A stretch of DNA of 20,250 nt. It comes from a virus. Shown piece after piece: positions 18,658 through 18,743 of the stretch. Position 1 is the stretch's first letter. Each line of letters starts with the position of its first letter. The stretch covers positions 1 through 20,250 of the IMG/VR virus record IMGVR_UViG_3300008261_000209; one strand, given 5' to 3'. The notes under the pieces are model-generated. The model was not told the DNA's origin. It saw only the letters and a program-made list of their open reading frames with translations, and ran no database searches. The translations under genes and the position numbers were made by a program.

Positions 18658-18672
18658 AGGGTAATGCACCCT
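18658..18672 (-). terminator. possible small intrinsic terminator
   Basis: In the leftward RNA: AGGGT, GCATT loop, ACCCT, then T5 into GTG. The stem has only 5 bp, so termination would be weak or conditional. The 5' arm touches the segment used by the alternative helix at 18670-18680. Confidence 0.4.
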
Positions 18673-18732
18673 AAACACAATACGCCCGGAGGAGTTACCC
18701 CCCAGGCATATTATGTGCGACTTCGCTTGTGT

Positions 18733-18743
18733 TTGGGACTCAG
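18733..18743 (+). repeat. recurrent word TTGGGACTCAG, intergenic copy
   Basis: A perfect copy of the 11-base recurrent word just after the stop of the first leftward gene, overlapping the 5' arm of the alternative helix of the attenuator-like leader. Being outside coding sequence, it is not constrained by a protein. Confidence 0.65.

Follow-up and report, generated by a model that had tools for sequence, protein, structure and literature searches.

In mitochondria, tRNA-shaped units lying between genes mark the sites at which long transcripts are cut, real tRNAs being released in the course of this tRNA punctuation. For RNase P, a hairpin comprising an acceptor stem, a T-stem and a T-loop is a sufficient substrate, model acceptor/T-arm minihelices also serve as substrates, the RCCA end is bound through base pairing by the RNA of RNase P, and the enzyme acts on operon mRNAs, phage M3 RNA and C4 RNA (PMC11143913). 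Among the works cited in that paper, tRNA-like structures in bacterial operon mRNAs that are processed by RNase P are treated by Li and Altman (2003) and Alifano (1994), and the phage RNAs cited there as cut by the enzyme are the P1/P7 C4 antisense RNA, M3 RNA and T4 gene 32 mRNA. In this context we describe a site behind gene 1, the first gene of a long phage operon, at which, judged from sequence comparison, a tRNA-like fold is conserved, composed of an acceptor-like stem, a T-arm-like hairpin and a CCA or related 3' end.

The window, that is, the whole stretch of DNA analysed, is an entire IMG/VR virus record of 20,250 bases. Read leftwards, it presents in order a conserved putative promoter region, a structured leader, gene 1, a 124-nt gap containing the element, a 48-aa frame and more frames. 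The downstream leftward products include a thioredoxin, a 238-aa protein, a serine recombinase, a Toprim/DnaB-type protein and a protein with a PolB-type exonuclease domain. The first-pass annotation had placed its site between the first gene and those that follow, and this is borne out, gene 1 (18749-19150) lying on one side and about two dozen leftward reading frames of the ORF list on the other. The features surrounding the element are as follows.

19663..19749, minus strand: conserved putative promoter region of the operon, TTGACTTTTTTTT...TATTTAGTTTGC, from comparison with relatives
19173..19640, minus strand: large structured leader RNA, 5' end approximate (window z -3.3; consensus of relatives)
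19173..19241, minus strand: tRNA-like 3' end of the leader, with CTATCCGTG / CACGGATAG stem, UUUGAC-loop hairpin, UCGUGU-loop hairpin, then CCA
18749..19150, minus strand: gene 1, 133 aa (ORF list; relatives found)
18735..18744, minus strand: motif copy TCTGAGTCCC abutting the element
18478-18624, minus strand: 48-aa reading frame, the first after the 124-nt gap
10323-11018: integrase-like serine recombinase
18735-18744, 17811-17820, 16900-16909, 16204-16213, 10500-10509, 3419-3428 and 1455-1464, minus strand: motif TCTGAGNCCC
2139-2148 and 11513-11522, plus strand: motif TCTGAGNCCC

The region 19663-19749, probably the operon promoter, is 83% identical to L015 over 87 nt and is matched also in L059-L061 and L065. 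Upstream of it on the same strand, at 19950-20080, lies a long low-complexity tract of CA/GCAC-rich repeats, and similar upstream tracts occur in L002 and L004. The motif TCTGAGNCCC, mostly then followed by AA, is present in nine window copies against 0.08 expected; it is frequent also in gene 1-bearing relatives, often at or just after stop codons, and within the 238-aa gene it recurs at neighbouring positions that differ in frame. The 238-aa protein itself (16519-17235, minus strand) has conserved cysteines, falls into PHROG 2554 and shares 30-39% identity with hypothetical proteins from numerous phages of Mycobacterium, Gordonia and Klebsiella.

In the leftward RNA the first-pass annotation had described an 18-bp hairpin with four G-U pairs followed by a small terminator. 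The hairpin is real, its length being corrected to 19 bp, but it forms one arm of a cloverleaf-like tRNA-like element behind gene 1, a structure which is well supported. Its parts are listed below.

18646..18733, minus strand: whole tRNA-like element, comprising closing stem, AAGU mini-hairpin, 19-bp arm, T-arm-like hairpin and U-CCA (MFE and centroid folds, z -6.4)
18727..18732, minus strand: 5' strand of the acceptor-like stem, ACACAA (P 0.80-0.996; both-side changes in four of six pairs, three lineages)
18717..18726, minus strand: mini-hairpin GCG-AAGU-CGC at the place of the D-arm (both-side changes in all three pairs)
18675..18716, minus strand: 19-bp hairpin with loop UAAC and five G-U pairs, at the anticodon-arm place (MFE and pair probabilities)
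18658..18672, minus strand: T-arm-like hairpin AGGG-UGCAUUA-CCCU, the earlier small terminator (both-side changes in two of four pairs)
18650..18655, minus strand: 3' strand of the acceptor-like stem, UUGUGU (pair probabilities and alignment)
18646..18649, minus strand: U-CCA immediately following the acceptor stem, in the position of a discriminator base and CCA (read from the sequence)

The element thus reads ACACAA-GCG-AAGU-CGC-[42]-UU-AGGG-UGCAUUA-CCCU-UU-UUGUGU-UCCA, with a fold stability of -42.6 kcal/mol. Its acceptor-like stem (ACACAA/UUGUGU) is closed directly before U-CCA, in the manner of an (N)CCA end, and A18733 can additionally pair with U18649. It matched neither a known RNA family nor a tRNA or tmRNA gene: Rfam returned no match relevant to the element and ARAGORN called no tRNA or tmRNA gene there, so that these candidates were rejected. 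Only by comparing several lineages is the element recognisable as a diverged tRNA-like fold.

The 19-bp arm is formed by pairing of 18698-18716 with 18675-18693 and contains five G-U pairs (18713-18678, 18708-18683, 18704-18687, 18701-18690 and 18698-18693), all of which become A.C in the RNA of the opposite strand. That such pairs exist in the leftward RNA only had been taken as evidence for selection on this strand. The restriction to one strand stands, with five pairs in place of four, yet the argument is weak taken alone, for if a perfect inverted repeat is the starting point and each transition yields G.U or A.C evenly, five out of five have a chance of 1/32, or 1/16 if the strand is picked afterwards. 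The leftward RNA nevertheless folds far beyond chance (z = -5.5 for 131 nt and -6.4 for 98 nt, none of 200 shuffles being as good), whereas the rightward RNA does not (z = -1.1; 26 of 200 shuffles as good). If the structure acts at all, it does so in leftward RNA, and the evidence for it from comparison is better than that from the G-U pairs.

This comparison draws on relatives gathered by means of gene 1 and a profile of the 238-aa protein, which yielded some fifteen phage contigs carrying gene 1; direct DNA relatives of the window were absent from 50,697 phage records. Counterparts of the element with the same layout lie behind distant homologues of gene 1. In L059-L061, which are identical in this element, the sequence is ACCCCU-GCA-AAGU-UGC-[4]-UU-GCGG-AGCGUUA-CCGC-AA-AGGGGU-GCA, and in L062 it is UCCCCU-CAC-AAGU-GUG-[4]-AU-GCGG-AGCGUUA-CCGC-AU-AGGGGA-GCG. 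Loop and length of the AAGU mini-hairpin are the same in the window, in L059 (GCA-AAGU-UGC) and in L062 (CAC-AAGU-GUG), and the T-arm-like hairpin of the window aligns without gaps to GCGG-AGCGUUA-CCGC. Since the window spacing is identical to that of L059-L062, the long hairpin is, on this alignment, placed where a tRNA has its anticodon arm, the supposed terminator is the T-arm-like hairpin and the strand of the supposed switch is an acceptor strand. The relatives L059-L062 have 4 nt where the window has its 42-nt hairpin arm, and no homologue of the 19-bp arm was found among the relatives examined; the arm may thus be a lineage-specific extension at the anticodon-arm position.

A descriptor of this layout (6-bp stem, 3-bp AAGU hairpin, 4-bp stem with an NGCRUUA loop, fixed 2-nt spacers) gave five matches in 0.65 Mb on both strands, namely the window and L059, L060, L061 and L062, all after gene 1, and none in 237 Mb of simulated sequence. 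Because it was composed after its members had been seen, the simulation gauges rarity and is no independent test; stronger evidence lies in the pair counts and the fixed genomic place. In the alignment of the three distinct sequences all 13 pairs are formed in every case, nine of them with both-side changes, and the score is 0.97 against 0.32 after shuffling.

A second type, sister to that of the window element, is found in other relatives. In most relatives the gene 1 stop codon is followed by a fold whose closing stem stops immediately short of CCA or a similar end and has the last hairpin stacked upon it, and in five types (L002/L004/L015; L014; L016/L018, that is L016-L018; L072/L092; L090) this takes the form of a 7-bp acceptor stem and a T-stem of 5-6 bp with the canonical T-loop UUCRANY, mostly then NCCA. 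The stacked length is 12-13 positions, as in tRNA, and is mostly followed by NCCA or GCA: NCCA stands at the same place in L002, L004, L014, L015, L018, L072 and L092, and a G-CA or G-CG end is found instead in L016, L090, L059 and L062. A descriptor requiring a 7-bp acceptor stem, a 5-bp T-stem and a UUCRANY loop gave ten matches in 0.64 Mb on both strands, compared with 0.05 per Mb in simulated sequence; nine of them follow gene 1 and the tenth, in L090, immediately precedes it. In an alignment of nine sequences, two of which are taken from elsewhere (L090 upstream of gene 1 and the end of the L072 downstream RNA), all 12 pairs form and 11 show both-side changes, with a score of 1.35 against 0.25; for this type and for the AAGU subtype alike, the linkers were omitted from the pair-count alignments, in which several rows represent one and the same phage group. 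Compensatory changes are seen also within types, in the acceptor stem between L072 and L092 (ATGCCGT/ACGGCAT and ATGTCGT/ACGACAT) and in the T-stem between L002 and L015.

The window departs from this pattern in two respects. In place of UUCRANY on a 5-bp stem it has UGCAUUA on 4 bp, and the T-loop descriptor accordingly has no match in the window; and in place of an unbroken acceptor/T-arm stack of 12-13 bp it has 6 + 2 + 4 positions, the two in the middle being U.U. Its layout after gene 1 is instead that of the AAGU/NGCRUUA subtype. Taking both types together, comparison of the sequences has shown the predicted fold apart from the long arm, its position after gene 1, and the presence of true T-loops in a number of relatives. 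At the same site nothing more than a simple hairpin is seen in L065, and a terminator alone in L019.

The element borders gene 1 both where an open reading frame follows (window, L002, L016, L090) and where a large RNA follows (L062, L072, L092), so that the constant feature is a tRNA-like border at gene 1. Gene 1 encodes a protein with no Pfam or PHROG match, for which a compact alpha/beta structure is predicted (pLDDT 86), without a match to the PDB at E <= 0.001. The gene was not found by tblastn in 50,697 phage records nor in bacterial genomes, and a second gene 1 profile returned only loci already known.

In the window, L002 (5640-5980), L015, L016, L018 and L014 a large RNA of some 300-470 nt precedes gene 1, and a comparable one lies behind gene 1 instead in L062, L065, L072, L092 and L074. 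This RNA has a UUUGAC-loop hairpin and a tRNA-like 3' end, and gave no relevant Rfam match. Compensatory changes attest its conservation in one clade, that of the window, where the leader has in six relatives 73 consensus pairs, 26 of them with such changes. The 14 stacked base pairs of the leader's 3' end are all paired in five sequences, four of these pairs having both-side changes, and this end folds in the window also. The large RNAs of L062, L065, L072 and L074 end, by eye and in copies complete at this end, in a T-loop or near-T-loop fold. In L090 gene 1 lies between two T-loop elements. Since several lineages including the window have an upstream structured RNA with a tRNA-like end, gene 1 is in these lineages bracketed by such folds.

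Further sequences were observed around these RNAs. A GTTCTTTGACATA-like sequence, which resembles a boxA antitermination signal, is found in the large RNA of L062, L065, L092, L099 (on the L090 record) and L074, with a near copy in L072; in the exact form GTTCTTTGACAT it is present in two of 26 records, near copies elsewhere being recognised by eye, and it could serve processive antitermination past the terminators of relatives. Behind the tRNA-like element of L059, at 3229-3420, and likewise in L060 and L061, the 5' portion of the large leader RNA appears to be repeated in truncated form (GGGCGGAGACGCTAAG...GCGTTATTTGA). Upstream of gene 1 in L062 and L065, and at 590-650 of L090, the operator-like palindrome TGTCCA-n6-TGGACA and variants of it are repeated, one copy in L090 forming an extra arm of the tRNA-like element. 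A DNA pattern derived from the leader gave mostly unrelated chance matches.

The first-pass annotation had read the site as an attenuator, in which a helix of 18727-18734 with 18673-18680 would exclude the hairpin. The complementarity over 8 bp exists, but the helix is essentially unpopulated: a fold constrained to contain it is less stable by 5.7 kcal/mol (-38.7 against -44.4), and it has a pair probability of 0.0005, since its bases are engaged with 18649-18655 in the outer stem, the stretch 18727-18733 pairing there with P 0.80-0.996 in coexistence with the hairpin. The supposed terminator, AGGGUGCAUUACCCU plus a short U-run, is a 6-bp hairpin of -5.7 kcal/mol, the closing stem takes up the two final U of that run, and terminator-like sites in the region are no commoner than in shuffles (one found, 2.4 in shuffles). 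An intrinsic terminator in the window was therefore rejected as not above chance, and the same fate befell the attenuator with exclusive helices, since an antiterminator/terminator pair was also not found in any relative examined. What does survive is the reading of the site as a conserved point of control or processing that divides gene 1 from the remaining operon. As strong intrinsic terminators stand at the same gene 1 border in three lineages of relatives (L014, L016-L018 and L019), the site also ends transcription in part of the group.

As to the function of the element, we infer a tRNA mimic at which RNase P-type processing would part gene 1 from the RNA that follows, a reading drawn from sequence to which we give about even credence. 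Host RNase P would recognise the stacked acceptor and T-arm helices with their CCA end and cut on the 5' side of the element, near 18732/18733, splitting the RNA of leader plus gene 1 from the downstream RNA. With CCA encoded, the 3' side would escape tRNase Z, and the downstream RNA would thus keep a folded 5' end as protection. The second tRNA-like end, upstream of gene 1, would likewise cut gene 1 from the leader. It is conceivable, if somewhat short of probable, that this phage group has evolved a tRNA punctuation of its own operon, whereby the tRNA-processing enzyme of the host would divide the transcript into three, one non-coding RNA and separate mRNAs for gene 1 and for the downstream part. 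With the same reserve, one mimic would then end the previously undescribed leader RNA of about 300-470 nt and the other would stand behind gene 1, the window version of the latter having diverged and acquired its 19-bp arm at the anticodon-arm place.

Against this stands the view that the element is a barrier, stabilising or protecting RNA ends against exonucleases, its tRNA shape being kept for tight folding and left uncut by RNase P. The very stable window fold, the conservation of fold but not of sequence and the lack of a T-loop in the window type all suit such a role, but the exact T-loop consensus, the stack of 12-13 positions and the NCCA of several lineages exceed the needs of mere stability, and we consider a barrier unlikely. 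Partial termination, with a folding choice or antitermination setting the output of the operon, could invoke the strong terminators of L014, L016-L018 and L019 and the large structured leader upstream, which suits an antitermination leader. With a window hairpin so weak and a switch helix so rare, however, and with a tRNA-like fold but by eye no hairpin followed by a T-run in L002, L004, L015, L072, L092 and L059-L062, this is decidedly improbable.

A tRNA mimic might also bind a host or phage protein (a synthetase, EF-Tu, a tRNA-targeting nuclease of defence or the gene 1 product) as a decoy or feedback site, and the T-loop and CCA of many copies, together with the constant adjacency of gene 1 and its compact alpha/beta product, would fit; that the element has no conserved anticodon-like loop and that the long arm is unique to the window make this very unlikely. 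Were the element a translational control structure of the following gene, its end 3 nt before the next start codon in L016/L018 and 21 nt before the ATG at 18622-18624 in the window would be explained, but a large non-coding RNA rather than a gene follows in L062, L072 and L092, and there is little to commend the idea. Hardly credible, finally, is a phage attachment site in which the 3' end of a host tRNA gene would be reproduced. The T-arm and acceptor 3' strand are the usual core of tRNA attP sites and an integrase-like serine recombinase is encoded at 10323-11018, yet the 5' acceptor strand is present too and covaries, the window copy is without a T-loop and, in a scan confined to the L002/L015-type 3' end, none of 84,980 genomes matched, so that an attP copy of a host tRNA is largely refuted.

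To return to RNase P-type processing, the window copy, on the evidence of its sequence, may be a weak substrate or have a barrier function only, since it has no T-loop and two U.U positions in its stack. If the processing reading is true, phages flank a single gene with minimal tRNA mimics, their CCA encoded, that serve as fixed cutting sites; such RNase P-dependent control of an operon would be compact and open to direct test, and it would point to a structured phage RNA, absent from Rfam, that ends in the same kind of mimic. The locus would illustrate also that what looks like an attenuator hairpin may belong, as one arm, to a diverged tRNA-like fold.

Our literature search found RNase P reviews but nothing that describes elements of this kind in phages, and we know of no sequence relation between these elements and the C4, M3 or T4 gene 32 RNAs. 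To judge from the works as cited, the sites in bacterial operon mRNAs resemble the present ones in having a tRNA-like fold within or between the genes of a polycistronic transcript, with a 5' cut to be expected at the acceptor-like stem, whereas here a dedicated element with T-loop and encoded CCA stands at the fixed border of one gene in several phage lineages, its cleavage being predicted. The C4, M3 and T4 gene 32 RNAs are alike in that a phage transcript imitates a pre-tRNA, but as described there C4 is an antisense repressor, M3 a small RNA and the T4 transcript a coding mRNA, and none of them forms a pair that brackets a gene. With bacterial Y RNA (YrlA) and tmRNA the elements share a tRNA-like domain in an RNA that is not a tRNA, and differ in giving no Rfam match at E up to 5-10 and no tmRNA call by ARAGORN. 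The elements of L002, L015, L014, L016 and L072 are nearly the model minihelix substrates, with 12-13 bp, a 7-nt T-loop and in most cases NCCA, but they are natural and lie within phage mRNA, and the window version differs further by its mini-hairpin, its 19-bp arm and its lack of a T-loop. As in mitochondrial punctuation, tRNA-shaped units between genes would mark the cutting sites, but here they are minimal mimics without a decoding arm.
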